From contig SLGR01000119.1 of NCBI GenBank assembly GCA_007136585.1, forward strand, positions 1 to 8,699: a stretch of 8,699 nt of DNA, written 5' to 3'. This DNA is from Candidatus Sumerlaeota bacterium (GTDB taxonomy: Bacteria > CG03 > SLGR01). Both the position numbers and the translations under genes were made by a program. Of the stretch, positions 812 to 8,699 are shown piece after piece. Each line of letters starts with the position of its first letter. Positions within the stretch are counted from its first letter, which is position 1. A model generated the notes under the pieces. That model saw nothing but the letters and a program-made list of their open reading frames with translations. It had not been told where the DNA came from and made no database searches.

Positions 812-3697
812 ATGAGCAGAAGATACACTGATAATACCTGGATTTCAAGCGCCCTTTTCTTTACTTTAAGGGCGCCCCTTAAACTTATTTCTGTCTCCGC
901 CCTCGCCGCCTGTATCCTGTTATTCGGAAGCCTGGCAAAGGCCAGTAGTTGGGAGTACGATTTTGGAACGGATACCGGGACTTTTGTTCAGGAAAATACA
1001 GTAAGCGAAGATTTTCTGCCCCAGCCCCAGGAAAACGGAGGAACCGCAAGGGTCCGGGTAGGAACCGGCGGAGGCGGCTTTTATCTTGAAAACCCCGGCA
1101 TAGCAGGTCTCGGAGACGGGGCTGAACTGAGGATTAAGGCCCCTACGGGAGGTTCAGTAAATAAATTCAGTATTTATGAACGTTTCCCGGGGAAGACTTT
1201 TTACACTAAATTTAAACTCAAACTTGGAGATTCTGACGGCGGAGGTACTGCGGAGGACGGCAGAATTATTTTTATGCAGGGTGCCGGTGGAAGGTATTCT
1301 GATAATTTAGTGATAGCGCATGACCAGACGTTCACCGGGTTGAGGTGGGATTTCGGAGGGGGCGGAGTGATAACTACATCTCATGCCAGTGGCGGGTCCT
1401 GGAGCGAACTTGGAGGGGATCCTTTCGTTCAGGGGAGTACTTTTACGGTTGAGATTTACGGGAATAATACCCTTGCTGAACAGGGTTATTCAAGGAACGG
1501 TTCAGATTATTCCCTGGGGGCAGGAACATATGACTTATGGGTAAATGATACATTGGTAGGAGATAACCTGCCTAAAGGGGAGATGGAGTCCGATGCTTTT
1601 ATTGACTCGTTTCTGTTTTACGGAGTAAACAGTAGCGAAAACCAGGCCAATATTTTTCTTGATGATTTTGAGTATACCAACGCATTGGACCCAGACGCGC
1701 CCCAGCTGTTTCCCGAACTTGTGTACTATAACCTGGATGACCCCGGGGATATCACCGCAAATATAATCTGGAACGAGGCAGATTCCGTAGTATCGGTCAG
1801 CGATAACGGAGATACCCTTAACGTAGGAACTGATTATGAGGTTGTCGGAGATACCCTTACCATAAAGAACGATTACCTGGATGATACCCTTAAGGTTGCC
1901 GGAAGCAGCGTTACTCTTAAAGTGGAGTTTGATGAGAGTTCGGAACTTAAGCTGGATATAATGGCTGCGGCTTCTCTTCCTTCAGGGGAGAACTGGGTTG
2001 AGAACTGGGACTTTGACGGACCCTGGGAAGGGACAGCAGCTTCAGGGAACCCCGAGCACTGGGTATGGGGAAAGAGGGGAGAGCGGTCAACCGATACCGC
2101 CAAAGTGCTTGTCGGGGAAGCTTCTTTCGTGCATGAACCTTATTTAGGGTATGAGTATCTTGAACAGACCGGGAAACTGCTTACGAATAAAGAGTACCAC
2201 CTGGCCGTATACGCAAAAGGGACCGGTATGGTGCGCCCTGGTATAATACACTCCGGGGGAACAAGTTACGTGGGCCCCGCGGGGCGTCTTATCATAGAAG
2301 ATTCGGACTGGGAAAGAGTGGATTTCAGTTACGAGAGCCCGGGCTCTATATTTGACGGAGGCATCAGTATCGGGTTACAGAGAAAGGAGGCCCGCGGGGA
2401 AGAGTTGGTTCTCGGGGCCGTATGGTTCAGCGATACGCCGCCCCCGGGGGACTGGCCCTCACCGCCCCAGCCGGTAGACGATCTTGCCGCATCATCCACG
2501 GATTCCGTTCAGGGAGCGGCCCTTGAGTGGACGGTTCCTTTTACGCCTCATCCCCCGGATTCCTACGAGCTCAGGTACGCCACGTACTCAGTGGCGGTCT
2601 CTACCTACTCCGACTGGTGGGACTCTATTCCCGAGTCTGAAGGCCTGTACGAGGGGAGAAGGATCATAGAAGCAACCGAGCCCGAGGGAGGTACCGAATC
2701 CCATATCATAGACGGGCTCTACCCGAACCTTACTTACTGGTTCGCGGTAAAGGTCTTTGACGAGGAGGGGTATTCTTCAGAGATAGATTATAACGCCCGT
2801 AACGAGGCATCCCAGGCCTCGGCTGAGATAATTAACCTGGCACCGCTCCCACCGACGGGCCTCACCGTGCCGGAGATAACCCTGGACCCGGTTGAGGTCA
2901 AGTGGGATCCGAATGAAGAGGTTGATGTCTCCAGGTACCTTCTTTACAGGGCTGAGAGGGATGAGGCAGGCCCCGTACCTTCTGTTGAGGGGGTATTTAT
3001 CGCCACAGTCTCCGCTACTTCCTATAATGATACCGGAATTGACACCTCAAAGTACTATACATACTGGGTGCGGGCCCTGGATGATTTCGGGCTAAAGAGT
3101 CCCTTATCCGCCCCGGCGCAGACATCCCCCGATTTAGACCCCCCTGTCATAGGGCATACCCCGCTTACCGACAGGGCGCTTGGACGGGATAGAATATTCG
3201 TGGAGTTCAGCGTTTCGGATAACCGTGAGGTATATGAGGCGGGTATTATATTTCAGGCCCTTCCGGACGGGGCCGAGACCGATATCCCCTTTTCCTTTAC
3301 CCCTTCGGATTACGTCGAAGGAGAGGTGGAGATAGATAAATCAAGTATAGGTCCCGGGGGTTTCAGGTACCGTATATACGCCTCGGACGGGCCGAACTTG
3401 AGCTTTTATCCCGGTGAGGATGAGTGGATAACTTTGCAGTTGAGAGCCGATGCGGATCCGGAGCAGAGATTCGTTACCCCGTCAAACCCCGAGGTCGTCT
3501 TCGGTACGGATGCAGAGTCGGTCCTTATAACCGATACCAGGGGAAACGAGGTGTTCAAGGCATCCAGAGGCGGATCGGATTTCATAGTCTGGAACCCGGC
3601 TGAGAACGGAAGTATAGCCATTGAGTCGGGGCTTTACATATACAGGGTAAAGACACAGAACGGGTACAGTTACGGGACCGTTGTGATAGTTAAATGA
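812..3697 (+). CDS. Secreted multidomain surface protein: beta-sandwich, X2, CBM-like, FN3 repeats, FlgD/T9SS-like C-terminus
   Basis: This 961-aa exported protein is the first gene of the operon. The ATG at 812 is the only standard start, because an in-frame TAA lies at 806-808; no ribosome-binding site is visible. Residues 1-44 form a long signal peptide ending AKA|SS. About 46-292 is a Gly-rich beta-sandwich resembling an N-terminal domain seen in secreted Bacteroidota proteins (FGTDTGTF, ARVRVGTGGGGF, NKFSIYERF). About 299-384 matches the X2 Ig-like module of glycan-degrading enzymes (GTDYEVVGDTLTI, a YL turn, then VTLKVEF). About 393-542 resembles a CBM4/9-type carbohydrate-binding jelly roll. 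About 551-670 and 677-772 are fibronectin type III domains. About 775-880 is another Ig-like module. About 885-961 is a FlgD-like domain ending 'GLYIYRVKTQNG...VVIVK', like T9SS sorting domains. No catalytic domain is recognisable, so binding, adhesion or scaffolding is likely. Its stop overlaps the next start by 4 nt (ATGA). Confidence 0.85.
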   Translation: MSRRYTDNTWISSALFFTLRAPLKLISVSALAACILLFGSLAKASSWEYDFGTDTGTFVQENTVSEDFLPQPQENGGTARVRVGTGGGGFYLENPGIAGLGDGAELRIKAPTGGSVNKFSIYERFPGKTFYTKFKLKLGDSDGGGTAEDGRIIFMQGAGGRYSDNLVIAHDQTFTGLRWDFGGGGVITTSHASGGSWSELGGDPFVQGSTFTVEIYGNNTLAEQGYSRNGSDYSLGAGTYDLWVNDTLVGDNLPKGEMESDAFIDSFLFYGVNSSENQANIFLDDFEYTNALDPDAPQLFPELVYYNLDDPGDITANIIWNEADSVVSVSDNGDTLNVGTDYEVVGDTLTIKNDYLDDTLKVAGSSVTLKVEFDESSELKLDIMAAASLPSGENWVENWDFDGPWEGTAASGNPEHWVWGKRGERSTDTAKVLVGEASFVHEPYLGYEYLEQTGKLLTNKEYHLAVYAKGTGMVRPGIIHSGGTSYVGPAGRLIIEDSDWERVDFSYESPGSIFDGGISIGLQRKEARGEELVLGAVWFSDTPPPGDWPSPPQPVDDLAASSTDSVQGAALEWTVPFTPHPPDSYELRYATYSVAVSTYSDWWDSIPESEGLYEGRRIIEATEPEGGTESHIIDGLYPNLTYWFAVKVFDEEGYSSEIDYNARNEASQASAEIINLAPLPPTGLTVPEITLDPVEVKWDPNEEVDVSRYLLYRAERDEAGPVPSVEGVFIATVSATSYNDTGIDTSKYYTYWVRALDDFGLKSPLSAPAQTSPDLDPPVIGHTPLTDRALGRDRIFVEFSVSDNREVYEAGIIFQALPDGAETDIPFSFTPSDYVEGEVEIDKSSIGPGGFRYRIYASDGPNLSFYPGEDEWITLQLRADADPEQRFVTPSNPEVVFGTDAESVLITDTRGNEVFKASRGGSDFIVWNPAENGSIAIESGLYIYRVKTQNGYSYGTVVIVK

Positions 3698-4656
3698 CAG
3701 TTGCGTGTAAATTTAAAAAATACGGGTTGATTTTTATAGTTGCCGCCGGGATGGGTCTCCTTCCGGGAGTATCCTCCGCAGGGTTTATGGACCCGGGGTG
3801 GGGGGCCAGGGGAGCCGGCAAGGGAGGAGCTTTCATAGCCTCCGTTGACGATGTGTCGGCCGTGATGTGGAACCCCGCGGCCCTCTCGGAAGTTTATATG
3901 AGGGAAGCGCTTCTTTCCTATCATAAGCCTTACGCCGGGCTGGACGGGGTAAACCTGAATATGGGGTTTGCCTCTTTCGCTTACCCCGTGGAGGGGATCG
4001 GGAATTTCGGGGCTTCTTTTACATCTTTTGACGGGGACGGAAAGTACAGGGAGACCACCTTCCAGGTTTCGGGGGCAAGGGAGTTTTCGGAACTTCTTAA
4101 TATTGAGCCGATGATGCTCTCTGCCGGTGTAAACCTTAAGTACCTTTTAAGCAGGTATTACTGGGACAGCGAGATAAAGGCCCTCGGGGACCCGGTTACG
4201 GAGAAAGACGGAGCCGGGGCTTTTACCGCTGATATCGGGGTTCTATTTCAGCCCTCATACAGTATCCCCGTTGGGATAACCGTAAAGAATATTATCCCCG
4301 CGGATGTTGGTCTGGCGGGAGAGGATATAGTGCCGCTTGAGTTTAAGGCGGGGGCCGCATACCGCCTGGGAACTGTAAGAGGGGTTGAGAGCCTGACCCC
4401 CGAGATTATGGTGGGGTACAGGGACCATGAGTATGACGACGGGAAGGTGAGCTGGGCGGTTGGTGTGGAGGGCTGGGTGCTGGATCACACCCTGGGTCTC
4501 CGGGCCGGGATAAATGATAACGAGGGCGCGCTGGGAGCGAGTTTTGAGAAGTTTATAGGGGATTTCATACTCCGTATTGATTATGCCGTCCTTATCTCCA
4601 GTACGCTGGGTGATAACCTGGGCAGTCACAGGATATCAACTAACCTGAGGTTCTGA
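3694..4656 (+). CDS. PorV/FadL-like outer-membrane beta-barrel protein
   Basis: This 320-aa protein starts at an ATG that overlaps the previous stop (ATGA). There is no clear Shine-Dalgarno sequence, which suggests translational coupling. Residues 1-29 form a signal peptide ending VSSA|GF. The mature N-terminus has the PorV/PorQ/UPF0164 signature: GARGAGKGGAFIA (about 37-49), then DDVSAVMWNPAAL (about 52-64), equivalent to the 'D...A...NPAGL' element of that family and of FadL. The rest alternates Gly/aromatic amphipathic strands expected of a 14-strand-type barrel. The final residue is Phe (STNLRF), matching the C-terminal signal recognised by the BAM complex. In T9SS, PorV shuttles cargo from the translocon to the attachment complex. 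Lying directly behind a gene with a sorting-like C-terminus, this barrel may handle that cargo. It could instead be a generic hydrophobic-solute channel. Confidence 0.8.
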   Translation: MTVACKFKKYGLIFIVAAGMGLLPGVSSAGFMDPGWGARGAGKGGAFIASVDDVSAVMWNPAALSEVYMREALLSYHKPYAGLDGVNLNMGFASFAYPVEGIGNFGASFTSFDGDGKYRETTFQVSGAREFSELLNIEPMMLSAGVNLKYLLSRYYWDSEIKALGDPVTEKDGAGAFTADIGVLFQPSYSIPVGITVKNIIPADVGLAGEDIVPLEFKAGAAYRLGTVRGVESLTPEIMVGYRDHEYDDGKVSWAVGVEGWVLDHTLGLRAGINDNEGALGASFEKFIGDFILRIDYAVLISSTLGDNLGSHRISTNLRF

Positions 4657-4657
4657 T

Positions 4658-5854
4658 ATGCTTATGATTCGCGGTATAGGCGGAAAAAGGTTTTTGATTC
4701 GGAGCGCCGGGGTATTGCTGGGGGTATTGCTTTCAGCAGGGTGTCTCTTCGCGCAGGAGATATCCGTGACCTCGGTAAGCATAGATAACTCCCATGCCCA
4801 TATAATAATAAATGAGGTAATACAGATTAACGAGATCCTTATAAAAGAAGACGAACTTGAGTTTCCGGTCTTTGTTTCCCGGTCAGGTCAGGTATTCCCC
4901 CAGGTGAGTTTCAGGACAAGTCAGGCGAGGGATACGGTGTTTGAGGCTGTGAAGACAGGGCGCCCCAGCGAGGAAAGGATAAGGAGGATCACCTACAAGA
5001 TAACCGATCTCTCCACATACAGGCAGGAAGGGTCCTCCCTGAGGGGGTTTGCCACCGTAACTTTTAACGGGGTGCTGGATATAGAGTGCCGTATAATGCA
5101 GTCCCGGCACGACGGCTCATACTGGGTCTCGTGGCCGGCCCGCCCCCCTGATGAGGATAGAGACGAGGATTCCTGGGTGGACCAGGTCTCTATAATAAAC
5201 AGGAGGGTCAGGGATATAGTTGAGCAGGATATTATAGAGCAGTACAGGGAAAAAACTGTAGATGAAGAGGCGGAAATCCCGGACCGGGATGTTTCTGTAA
5301 GAGTGGTTGAGGGGCCCGTTGATACCCCGGTTACGGTAACTGACGTAAAGGTTGAGCCGGTTACGGGAGAGGGGAGCCGGGTTGCTTCGGCCGAGGTGGA
5401 GTTAAACTATTCAATCAGGATTATGGATATAAAGGTTCATTCTCGGCGGGGAGAGATTTTCCTTGAGTACCCCGTGAGCGTGGCAGCCTCGGGGAGGGAG
5501 TTTGACCAGATGAGGGTGCTTTCCCGGGAACTCGGAAGGGAGATAAGAAGGGCGGTCGAGACCGGTGAACCTTCGGAGGAGAAATACGCCGAGGTTGGGT
5601 TTGAGATAACCAAGTTCGAGAGGTTTGACTCCGATAGCGCCCTTAAGTATTTCTGCGGGGTTACAATAAACCAGGTTATTGAGATAGAATGCGCGATAAT
5701 TGACGGGCCCGGGTACGATGCTTTTGTCAGCTGGCCCTCGCGCAGGGAGAACGGGGATTACGTAGATCAGATAATCCCTGTAAACAGCGATTTCCGGGAT
5801 GCCGTTGAAAGAGCTCTTCTTTCAAAATACCAGAGAGAGTTAAGAAGCCGGTAA
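4658..5854 (+). CDS. Exported protein with four tandem SpoVG-like domains
   Basis: This 398-aa protein starts at ATG 4658, one base after the previous stop, with GAGG (4647-4650) 7 nt upstream. Residues 1-32 are a signal peptide (cleavage LFA|QE). A lipobox-like LSAGC at 25-29 also allows a lipoprotein. The mature part reads as four SpoVG-like domains: A about 34-101, B about 111-198, C about 226-302, D about 315-397. Domain D is clearest: CGVTINQVIEIECAIIDG, then FVSWPSRRENGDYVDQIIPVN, then a helix with ALLSKYQREL. These align with B. subtilis SpoVG (ASIT...F.VHDIRVIDG, FVAMPSKR..DGEFRDI.HPIN, AVL.EYH) as I recall it. B shows VSWPARP...WVDQVSIIN. A and C lack the tryptophan strand and are more diverged. 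An acidic linker (about 199-224) separates A-B from C-D. SpoVG family proteins are normally cytoplasmic, about 85-100 aa, and bind DNA/RNA; an exported array is unusual. Its partner here is unknown. Confidence 0.8.
   Translation: MLMIRGIGGKRFLIRSAGVLLGVLLSAGCLFAQEISVTSVSIDNSHAHIIINEVIQINEILIKEDELEFPVFVSRSGQVFPQVSFRTSQARDTVFEAVKTGRPSEERIRRITYKITDLSTYRQEGSSLRGFATVTFNGVLDIECRIMQSRHDGSYWVSWPARPPDEDRDEDSWVDQVSIINRRVRDIVEQDIIEQYREKTVDEEAEIPDRDVSVRVVEGPVDTPVTVTDVKVEPVTGEGSRVASAEVELNYSIRIMDIKVHSRRGEIFLEYPVSVAASGREFDQMRVLSRELGREIRRAVETGEPSEEKYAEVGFEITKFERFDSDSALKYFCGVTINQVIEIECAIIDGPGYDAFVSWPSRRENGDYVDQIIPVNSDFRDAVERALLSKYQRELRSR
4757..5845 (+). repeat. Internal duplication: two copies of a two-domain SpoVG-like unit
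   Basis: The two units are residues 34-198 (about 4757-5251) and 225-396 (about 5330-5845). Each is an A/C-type domain followed by a B/D-type domain. The hinge is the best-conserved mark: 'AVKTGRPSEERIRRITYKIT' at about 97-116 and 'AVETGEPSEEKYAEVGFEIT' at about 299-318. Later equivalents are VLDIECRIM with VIEIECAII, and VSWPARP with VSWPSRR. This implies duplication of a two-domain unit after the two domains had already diverged. At DNA level the copies are not obviously similar, so the event is old. Confidence 0.7.
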
Positions 5855-5860
5855 AGGAAA
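5855..5860 (+). promoter_or_regulatory. Ribosome-binding site AGGAAA that decides the start of the PLD gene
   Basis: AGGAAA directly follows the TAA (5852-5854) of the previous gene and lies 6 nt before CTG 5867, an ideal spacing. No ATG, GTG or TTG exists in frame between 5855 and 5995, yet that stretch encodes a clear signal peptide. The site therefore favours the CTG as start. Confidence 0.6.
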
Positions 5861-5866
5861 CCTGCC

Positions 5867-7261
5867 CTGAATAAAACCGTTTTAAAGAACACTCTGAAGA
5901 TATTCTTCGCGGCCTCTATCCTGGCCGTTTTATTAACCTGCAGCTCCTCTGCCGCCTCGGAGAATATAAGGGTTTTCTTTAACCAGCCGGAGCATTTGTC
6001 CGGTAATATCCGGGGATCCCATCCCGGGATGTCGGTGGAAGAGCCTTTGTTTTTTCTTATAGAGTCGGCTCAATCCGGTGATACCCTCTATGCCTGTTTC
6101 TACCGGATGAGCTGTGTGGATATCGCTGAGGCTTTCAATGATGCCACAGACAGGGGGGTATCGGTATATTTTATCACCGATGACGACTACGGGAATACGG
6201 GCGCTTACAGCATGCTTGACTCCACTAACGTAATGATGGGAAACAGTTCGAATTTTATGCATAACAAGTTCCTTGTTCTTAAAAGCAGCGCTGTCTGGGT
6301 CTCTTCTGCCAACCTCACCGAAAACGGGCTCTTAAATGAAAATAATAACGCTCTTCTGATTTATTCCCGTGAACTTGCCGATGTATACGAGAGGGAGTTT
6401 CTCCATATGTGGGAGGGTAACTTCTCAGGAGACAAGGACCTTGATGAGCATACGCCGGCAAGAGTAACCGTTGACGGGGTTGATATTGAGGTTAATTTTT
6501 CGCCCTATGTAACGGCAACTCACAACAGTTCAAGTCTTATTGAGCGCTTGATAGATTCTGCCTCAGATTCGGTCTTTTTCAGTATCTTTACTTTTTCCTT
6601 TAACGAGACAAGGATAAAAAACGCCCTGCGCCGGGCACGTTTGAGGGGAGTGGAGGTTAAGGGAGTAGTGGATAGCTCCCAGGGTACCTCGCGTGAAACC
6701 CGGAGGAGGCTTATTAAGGACGGGATGGATATTCTGCTGGACGGAAACCCCTATAACCTGCACCACAAGTTTGCCGTTATTGACCACGGCACTGAAGATG
6801 CTCTGGTTATAACCGGATCCTATAACTGGACCCCGGACGCAAACAGCGTACACGACGAGAACTTTCTTGTAATACACTCAACTGCCGTTGCTTCCCTTTA
6901 CTGGCAGGAGTTTCAGAATAACTACTCCGTTGCGGTAGGGGGTGAGGCGACGCGGGGCGATTCGGCGGTAGATGATGTGATAGTATACCCGTCTCCGGCG
7001 CGGGATACGGAGAAGGTTACCTTAGGGTATACTCTTTCCTCGGCTGTTTCCGAAGTTGAAGTAAGAGTGTACACCCTTTCAGGTGAAGAGGTGATTTCAA
7101 TCTCCCCCGGGTTCTACCCGGGAGCGGATAACGAAATTATCTGGGATCTTAAGAACTCTTCCGGGAATAGTGTGGCAGGCGGGCTTTATTTCCTTAAGGT
7201 GACGGCCACTACAGGGGACGGGGATTTCTCGGAAACAGAGAAATTCGCGGTTATAAGATGA
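5867..7261 (+). CDS. Exported phospholipase-D-superfamily (HKD) protein with T9SS/FlgD-like C-terminal domain; CTG start proposed
   Basis: This is a 464-aa reading from CTG 5867. The first standard start, TTG 5996, gives 421 aa but loses an in-frame signal peptide (LNKTVLKNTLKIFFAASILAVL..., cleavage near SAAS|EN) and the first strand ENIRVFF. AGGAAA lies 6 nt before the CTG. The protein has two PLD-like halves. The second has a full motif: H299-x-K301-x4-D306 (HHKFAVID), then TGSYNWT (G317, S318, N320) and HDENF. The first keeps H132-N-K134, but the Asp is Lys139 and the GS is SS (SSANLT), so it is partly degenerate. PLD enzymes form a pseudo-dimeric site from both His residues, so activity is plausible. 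Substrates in the family include phospholipids and DNA/RNA (Nuc type). About 367-464 is a FlgD-like C-terminus (DDVIVYPSPA, GGLYFLKV, FAVIR) typical of sorted surface proteins. The stop overlaps the next start (ATGA). Confidence 0.8.
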   Translation: MNKTVLKNTLKIFFAASILAVLLTCSSSAASENIRVFFNQPEHLSGNIRGSHPGMSVEEPLFFLIESAQSGDTLYACFYRMSCVDIAEAFNDATDRGVSVYFITDDDYGNTGAYSMLDSTNVMMGNSSNFMHNKFLVLKSSAVWVSSANLTENGLLNENNNALLIYSRELADVYEREFLHMWEGNFSGDKDLDEHTPARVTVDGVDIEVNFSPYVTATHNSSSLIERLIDSASDSVFFSIFTFSFNETRIKNALRRARLRGVEVKGVVDSSQGTSRETRRRLIKDGMDILLDGNPYNLHHKFAVIDHGTEDALVITGSYNWTPDANSVHDENFLVIHSTAVASLYWQEFQNNYSVAVGGEATRGDSAVDDVIVYPSPARDTEKVTLGYTLSSAVSEVEVRVYTLSGEEVISISPGFYPGADNEIIWDLKNSSGNSVAGGLYFLKVTATTGDGDFSETEKFAVIR

Positions 7262-8172
7262 GAAGAGCGCTGTTCGTACTTTGTTTATTCGCCTCTCTGG
7301 TTACCGGGGAGGTTTACGCCGGGGCCGGGACCACGGCGGCGAACTTCCTGAAACTCCCGTTCGGGGCGAGGAGTTCGGCCCTGGGGTCCAGTTTTACGGC
7401 CTTTGCCGAAGGGCCGGAGGCCCTTTACCATAACCCGGCCGGGCTGGCAAACGGTGTATTCAACGAGGGCAGGGCCGTATTCAGTAAATGGATACAGGGG
7501 ACTTATTTCGGGCAGGCCGCCTATAGGCACGGTCTGGACTCCGGCGGGTTCGGGGCGGGGATAACTTATTTTAACTCGGGGGAGATAACCCGGAGAGACC
7601 TTGGAAGGAGAAAGACCGGGAGCTACAGTTTTCAGTCCGCTGCCATTGACGCGGGGCAGGGGCTCAGGGTCTCGGAATCCCTGAACCTGGGACTTGCTCT
7701 CAGGTTCATCTGGGAGTCTGTTGACGGGGAGCAGGTTAACGCACTTGCCGGAGGGATGGGGGCTCAGTATACCCGGCAGCTTAGCGAGGCGCATCTCCTG
7801 CGGGCGGGGGTTTCACTGGAAAACCTCGGGACGGAGATGGGGCATGACGGGAAGTACCCTCTTCCGGCTGTTCTTAGGGTAGGGGTTGGAGATATTCTTT
7901 TTGACGGATTACTCAGCGCTTCCACGAGTATAAACTACTATTTCAATGAAGAGAACTTCAGCGGGGGAGTTGGAGTGGAATATTCCCCGGTGGAACTTCT
8001 TGACCTGAGGGCCGGGTACCGGTTCGGGGAGGGTTCCCCGACACCGTATGGTTTTACCGCAGGGATAGGGATAAGATATGTTGATGATATGGAATATGTT
8101 TTTGATATCAGTTCCGGATATATGGGTGATCTCGGGTTTACGGTTATGGCTGGGACAGGGGTAGCTTTCTGA
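7258..8172 (+). CDS. PorV/PorQ family outer-membrane protein
   Basis: This 304-aa protein has its ATG inside the ATGA overlap with the PLD gene, so coupled translation is likely. The signal peptide is residues 1-21 (EVYA|GAG). The mature start is classic for PorV/PorQ-type proteins: GAGTTAANFLKLPFGARSSA with LGSSFTAFA following, then EALYHNPAGLA (about 55-65). Repeated Gly/aromatic amphipathic strands follow, and the chain ends with Phe (GTGVAF), fitting BAM-assembled barrels. The family includes PorV, the T9SS cargo shuttle, and PorQ, an attachment-complex component. The protein matches the family pattern better than the barrel at 3694-4656, to which it is a distant paralogue. Its place directly behind an exported protein with a sorting-like domain suggests that protein is its cargo; that link is inferred. 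Confidence 0.87.
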   Translation: MRRALFVLCLFASLVTGEVYAGAGTTAANFLKLPFGARSSALGSSFTAFAEGPEALYHNPAGLANGVFNEGRAVFSKWIQGTYFGQAAYRHGLDSGGFGAGITYFNSGEITRRDLGRRKTGSYSFQSAAIDAGQGLRVSESLNLGLALRFIWESVDGEQVNALAGGMGAQYTRQLSEAHLLRAGVSLENLGTEMGHDGKYPLPAVLRVGVGDILFDGLLSASTSINYYFNEENFSGGVGVEYSPVELLDLRAGYRFGEGSPTPYGFTAGIGIRYVDDMEYVFDISSGYMGDLGFTVMAGTGVAF

Positions 8173-8699
8173 TGATTAAGTTCTTAAAAGTACTGTTAAT
8201 TGCGCCGTTTATTGGTTTTTTTCTCTTTGATCCGGCCTTGCCGGCCGGAAACAGAGGCCCACGTGAGGAGCTCAGCGCAAGAAGAGGAAGCCCCTCGGAT
8301 TACGAGGTCTCGGAAGATGATATGGTCGTTACCTTTATTGATGTCGGGCAGGGTAACGCGGTTCTTGTTGAAGCTCCTTCCGGGAAGACTCTTCTTTACG
8401 ATGCCGGGGGGCGTCCGGAATGGATGACCTCCTCCTGGGACCCGGGAATGGAGATCGTGGTTCCTTTTTTGCGGGAACTCGGAATAGAGAGGATAGATTA
8501 CGCGGTGATGTCCCACGCTCACGGGGACCATATCGGCGGGTTCCCGGCAGTTTTATATAACTTTGAGGTCGGGGAGTTCATTGATCCGGGGTTTCCCCAC
8601 CAGAGCAGCCTATATGAGGAACTGCTTGAAATAGTTGAAGAGCTTGAGATTACCTACAGGGTCCTGAGAGAAGGGGACGGGGAGAAGATAGACCTAGGG
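8172..8699 (+). CDS. Exported ComEC/Rec2-type metallo-beta-lactamase protein (5' part, truncated by window edge)
   Basis: The first 176 codons are present; the gene runs off the right edge. ATG 8172 overlaps the preceding TGA by one base (TGATG), with AGGGG (8157-8161) 10 nt upstream. Residues 1-25 form a signal peptide (ALPA|GN), followed by a polar linker to about residue 50. The MBL domain then starts with the ComEC-type strand VVTFIDVGQGNAVLVEAPSG (about 52-71), LLYDAGG (74-80), VVPFLRELGIERIDYAVM (96-113) and the metal-binding motif SHAHGDHIGG (114-123; H115, H117, D119, H120). Such domains occur as the C-terminal nuclease-like part of the DNA-uptake channel ComEC, and as stand-alone exported proteins, often with a lamin-tail domain. 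No ComEC membrane helices precede it, so this is a stand-alone form. A nuclease or phosphodiesterase role is likely but unproven. Confidence 0.85.
   Translation, partial: MIKFLKVLLIAPFIGFFLFDPALPAGNRGPREELSARRGSPSDYEVSEDDMVVTFIDVGQGNAVLVEAPSGKTLLYDAGGRPEWMTSSWDPGMEIVVPFLRELGIERIDYAVMSHAHGDHIGGFPAVLYNFEVGEFIDPGFPHQSSLYEELLEIVEELEITYRVLREGDGEKIDLG

Follow-up and report, generated by a model that had tools for sequence, protein, structure and literature searches.

The protein of 398 aa encoded at positions 4658-5854 of the analysed DNA (the whole stretch of 8,699 nucleotides, called here the window) is built of four domains of the SpoVG fold behind a signal-peptide-like N-terminus, and these domains form two copies of an A-B pair. 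The fold, the pairing, the conservation of the protein and its gene neighbourhood were computed, and export was judged by a heuristic. The best explanation, to which roughly an even chance is given, is that the tandem handles DNA outside the cytoplasm, as part of a system for DNA uptake or for the processing of extracellular DNA; we infer that this protein binds DNA, that it sits in the periplasm or at the outer membrane, and that it acts in uptake or digestion. A wider proposal falls somewhat short of even and is put forward tentatively: exported SpoVG tandems of several lineages may be an unrecognised extracytoplasmic DNA-binding component of an uptake or processing machine, and this would be the first known case of a SpoVG fold at work beyond the cytoplasm. 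Such a machine would comprise a ComEA-type helix-hairpin-helix (HhH) protein, a ComEC-type metallo-beta-lactamase (MBL), the SpoVG tandem and ComEC, together with outer-membrane partners. If this is true, a fold known from a cytoplasmic DNA-/RNA-binding regulator has been recruited for extracellular DNA, and the DNA-uptake systems of poorly studied diderm phyla gain a new testable component, the two-domain members of which are small and should be easy to express and assay.

Domain architecture and family assignment

The gene and its parts are located in the window as follows:

4658-5854, plus strand: exported four-domain SpoVG protein, 398 aa; ATG open reading frame, PF04026 E=1.1e-24, orthologues in the phylum
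4658-4753, plus strand: signal-peptide-like N-terminus (by heuristic), residues 1-32; basic n-region, hydrophobic core, cleavage-like site between LFA and QE, likewise in homologues
4754-4969, plus strand: SpoVG-fold domain A, A-type, residues 33-104; no Pfam match when alone, profile match to C (E=3e-22), fold present in models
4985-5266, plus strand: SpoVG domain B, B-type, residues 110-203, loop WVSWPARPP; PF04026 3.4e-7, 2ia9 Z 10.4
5327-5575, plus strand: SpoVG domain C, A-type, residues 224-306; PF04026 5.7e-7, profile match to A
5588-5851, plus strand: SpoVG domain D, B-type, residues 311-398, loop FVSWPSRR; PF04026 2.4e-9, 2i9z Z 9.0

The whole protein scores 86.8 bits against PF04026 in three separate stretches, the gathering score being 29.6 bits, and with this score passed and the fold matched it belongs to the SpoVG domain family. 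Domains B, C and D each exceed the gathering score when excised and run alone (30.7, 30.0 and 37.6 bits respectively); excised domain A has no PF04026 match and is tied to the family through its profile match to C. The original prediction of four SpoVG-like domains is supported by these separate runs for B, C and D and by the profile match for A, and the structural models agree with it. In profile comparison (hhalign), A pairs with C and B with D (E=7e-33), and cross-type comparisons are far weaker. A and C have no WPSR-type loop and a short helix; in B and D the W-V-S-W-P loop is present and the C-terminal helix is long. From the profile pairing it follows that the protein is (A-B) x 2, so that the four repeats of one pattern described originally are indeed four SpoVG-fold domains, but in reality two A-B pairs, and an arrangement of four equal domains was dropped. 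A single duplication at the base of the phylum is no more than compatible with the module tree, in which the AB modules make up one side of a branch with a support of only 76/33 and the CD modules do not. A chance repeat or a frame artefact was ruled out by end-to-end conservation at 32-54% identity in ten full-length orthologues.

Membership of the domain family does not make the protein a SpoVG orthologue, because the equivalog model NF009749 of NCBIfam gives it 63 bits against a cut-off of 108; it is a SpoVG-domain protein, and its signal-peptide-like N-terminus and four domains depart from the cytoplasmic single-domain septation regulator that this model describes. Known SpoVG proteins are single-domain, cytoplasmic and about 85-140 aa long, whereas the tandem carries two or four domains in one exported chain and has two diverged domain types, and in most of its domains the DNA-contact doublet is incomplete. 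The fold is the same as in the SpoVG proteins of B. subtilis (2ia9) and S. epidermidis (2i9x, 2i9z), with a significant profile match for B, C and D.

Export is supported by the heuristic reading of the N-terminus, MLMIRGIGGKRFLIRSAGVLLGVLLSAGCLFA followed by QEIS, which has a net charge of +4, then a hydrophobic core and then GCLFA directly before QEIS, and has the typical look of a signal peptide. All 25 tandem homologues listed begin with a similar hydrophobic stretch, again by the heuristic and not by SignalP, in agreement with the signal peptide proposed at the outset; two exported-tandem members of family f35 possess a lipobox. The single-domain SpoVG proteins of the phylum, in contrast, start directly at the domain. 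Reuse of the SpoVG fold outside the cytoplasm, as originally suggested, is supported.

Predicted structure

The AlphaFold2 model of the four-domain protein, obtained with 11 orthologues, has a mean pLDDT of 83.8 and repeats the order strand-strand-strand-loop-helix four times; the domain borders proposed earlier fit it. Its pTM is 0.49, and the model does not fix how the A-B and C-D pairs are placed with respect to each other. Predicted by itself, with 36 relatives, the A-B module reaches a pLDDT of 96.6 and a pTM of 0.90, that is, it is confidently predicted to be one rigid two-domain unit. Foldseek ranks three crystal structures of SpoVG, 2ia9, 2i9x and 2i9z, first for the model (probability 1.00), and in VIA the best structural match of domain B (Z 10.4, rmsd 2.4 A, 89 residues aligned) and of domain D (Z 9.0, rmsd 2.4 A, 85 residues aligned) is also SpoVG. 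SpoVG is again the best match in the structure search with the A-B module, aligned on the B half. Each A-B or C-D module would probably work as a single-chain counterpart of a SpoVG dimer.

Distribution

The four-domain protein was found whole or partial in 13 of the 16 genomes examined of the phylum, the search of which returned none in G002, G003 and G008, and the matching public records are Elusimicrobia MAGs. The own genome of the window (88% complete) contains no second SpoVG gene. The exported array is not unique to the window, as it occurs in the orthologues and in two-domain families; exported two-domain versions are present outside the phylum in at least eight families (f35, f62, f71, f121, f148, f190, f203, f223), in five of five genomes examined of the phylum of G380 and in three of three of the phylum of G044. 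No description of an exported or tandem SpoVG was found in the literature searched (subscription journals were largely outside this search), which accords with the original remark that no function is known for such an array; within that literature neither the tandem in its exported form nor its association with DNA-uptake genes seems to have been described.

Operon and gene neighbourhood

Six genes at 812-8699, all in one orientation and with no overlap or gap between neighbours above 12 nt, form one tight operon. Besides the tandem gene it contains:

812-3697, plus strand: large exported surface protein, first gene of the operon, with CBM_X2, fn3 and a sorting-domain-like C-terminus (Pfam); 4-nt overlap with the next gene
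3694-4656, plus strand: PorV/PorQ-family outer-membrane protein directly upstream of the SpoVG tandem; NF033709 6.9e-18, below cut-off; upstream gene conserved
5867-7261, plus strand: exported protein of the PLDc_2 type (phospholipase D/nuclease superfamily), ending in FlgD_ig, with a probable CTG start; PLDc_2 4.3e-41, on the reading frame from TTG 5996
7258-8172, plus strand: second PorV/PorQ-family outer-membrane protein; NF033709 5.6e-39, above cut-off
8172-8699, plus strand: ComEC-type MBL, incomplete at the contig end; Lactamase_B 3.9e-14, TIGR00361 ComEC_Rec2 6.6e-16, below cut-off; SHAHGDH motif

The arrangement of the operon is kept in related families, and longer contigs of these families add LTD proteins and ComEA-type HHH_3 proteins. 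A ComEA-type HHH_3 gene is located 0.95-5.7 kb from the tandem in eleven genomes (G015, G009, G010, G004, G006, G007, G082, G224, G353, G253 and G380), and less than 6 kb away in seven of the nine families with usable contigs (f1, f2, f3, f6, f71, f190, f203), the two without such a gene in this range being f35 and f62. The chance of meeting HHH_3 within 7 kb of a random site is 0.6-4.6% per genome; at 4.6% the binomial estimate for the linkage is roughly 1e-8, a rough and partly post hoc figure, since the pattern was spotted on some of the genomes and then counted. A ComEC-type MBL adjoins the tandem or lies within about 3 kb in five families (f1, f2, f3, f203, f71). ComEC, on the same strand as the tandem, is adjacent or near in four: it is the next gene in G082, and is about 7 kb away in G224 and, in G009 and G010, about 16 kb. 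In this sense the tandem has the conserved link with comEA-type and comEC-type genes that a natural-competence or DNA-uptake component would show.

One genome, G082 (family f71), has the order ComEA, ComEC-type MBL, small protein, SpoVG pair and ComEC, where ComEA scores 60.4 bits in TIGR00426 (cut-off 53.1) and ComEC 45.9 bits in TIGR00360 (cut-off 36.5). In f203 the order is MBL, SpoVG pair, membrane protein of 263 aa and HHH_3 protein, close or overlapping, and in f190 it is PLDc_2, SpoVG pair, LTD, outer-membrane protein and HHH_3, with ComEC 7 kb off. Two observations count against the DNA-uptake reading: exported pairs of f35, f62 and f223 have no competence neighbours, and three genomes of family f6 contain ComEC and no SpoVG array. 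As a control, the single-domain SpoVG genes of two Elusimicrobia genomes sit among housekeeping genes, not competence genes.

According to the mechanism proposed, two copies of the rigid module (A-B and C-D) in the periplasm or at the outer membrane would hold or guide incoming extracellular DNA beside ComEA-type helix-hairpin-helix proteins and would pass it to exported nucleases (ComEC-type MBL, PLD) and to ComEC, so that DNA could be taken up for transformation, or extracellular DNA digested as a source of nutrients or for repair. The MBL domain of ComEC is a DNase degrading the non-translocating strand (PMC12455585). ComEC and stand-alone ComEC-type MBLs are genomic partners of the tandem and candidates for the downstream nuclease or channel, and are not homologous to the SpoVG protein. 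The tandem would resemble ComEA, the exported or membrane-anchored HhH DNA receptor of competence, in the proposed extracytoplasmic DNA binding, and both occur near ComEC in the same clusters; their folds, however, are unrelated, and in clusters containing both, the tandem stands beside the HhH protein rather than in its place.

The same operon can be read in another way, with the tandem as a periplasmic or surface accessory (scaffold or sorting factor) of a PorV-type (type IX-like) secretion or display cluster, of which the nuclease and the MBL are cargo. In most orthologous loci, as in the window, the tandem gene is found immediately 3' of a PorV-family gene, and proteins encoded nearby, including S8 and C10 proteases, have FlgD_ig, CHU_C or Por_Secre_tail-like C-termini. 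Nevertheless this reading is considered unlikely: in f203 and f71 no PorV gene adjoins the tandem, but MBL, ComEA-type HhH or ComEC is still there, and SpoVG has no known secretion role. The PorV/PorQ family and type IX cargo share the operon of the tandem in the home phylum, are not homologous to it and are absent beside it in other families.

Nucleic acid binding and other possible ligands

Cytoplasmic SpoVG binds DNA via a doublet of basic residues, both of them required, that lies next to the C-terminal helix (Jutras 2013, PMC3688583), and in S. aureus SpoVG this doublet is K50-R51 (PMC3688583); binding of RNA is reported in PMC4959528. The equivalent of K50-R51 is RR in domain D (WPSRR) and R-P in domain B (WPA-RP), and in the alignment most orthologues keep one basic residue of the doublet. 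With a net charge of -22 and a pI of 4.8 the window protein is acidic, and the same holds for its f1 and f4 relatives and for other proteins of the operon (median -5.7 per 100 aa); most homologues are basic, with a net charge up to +50, and charge is not conserved. For the nucleic acid binding suggested in the original prediction the backing is indirect and comes from the recurrent neighbours (ComEA-type HhH, ComEC, MBL, PLD); the acidity of this copy and its partly kept doublet weaken the case.

It is improbable, though conceivable from the strong basicity of many orthologues, that the ligand of the tandem is some other polyanion or a polymer of the envelope (lipopolysaccharide, capsule, polyphosphate, RNA) and not DNA for uptake. 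The surface protein of the operon has CBM_X2 and fn3 and an additional weak CBM_4_9 match in Pfam, and in f62 the members have diguanylate cyclase genes next to them and no competence genes. Against this reading stand the acidity of the window copy and the recurrent neighbours, which belong to nuclease and competence families, not to polysaccharide enzymes. Slightly less probable still is a SpoVG fold that has lost nucleic acid binding and acts in the envelope only as a protein-protein interaction module, for while the doublet is incomplete in most copies, A-type domains are entirely without the WPSR motif, net charge is not conserved and the structure weakly resembles polo-box and RseB/MucB binding domains (Z about 4), the linkage to DNA-handling genes runs across several families and conservation of the W-[VI]-x-W-P-[AS] motif is strong.

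Other observations

PHROGs gave no match that would point to a phage origin, and Rfam none that would indicate an RNA element within the window. For the PLDc_2 gene the probable start is CTG 5867, preceded by the ribosome-binding-site-like AAAGGAA, rather than TTG 5996, and this start would give the protein a lipoprotein-like signal (..AVLLTCSS..); the first of its HKD motifs looks degenerate (HNKFLVLK) and the second intact (HHKFAVID).

Several genes of other loci have unusual forms. A 1089-aa ComEC with an SNase domain inserted ahead of the channel domain (L135:2599-5865, minus strand) directly follows a SpoVG pair gene, and a ComEC-type MBL homologue of the same locus (L135:6774-7658, minus strand) is seemingly devoid of the HxHxDH metal-binding stretch. 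At L063:2355-3938 (minus strand) a PorV/FadL-type outer-membrane domain is fused to ComEA-type helix-hairpin-helix repeats. In f62 (L136, L138) the exported SpoVG pair overlaps or abuts the diguanylate cyclase (GGDEF) genes. A multi-pass membrane protein of 258-268 aa, with no Pfam match, is encoded 3' of the tandem in f5, f6, f203 and f148 with 30-42% identity between families, at the following loci:

L068:6347-7147, minus strand
L069:5333-6112
L133:5181-5972
L134:4592-5383, minus strand
L139:6053-6859

Two kinds of ComEC, of about 700 aa and about 985 aa, are present in most genomes of the phylum (G009:C54 L158, G010:C11 L159, G000:C214 L160); the ~985-aa kind is followed by a PD-(D/E)XK nuclease and is found near the SpoVG array in G009 and G010 (16 kb).
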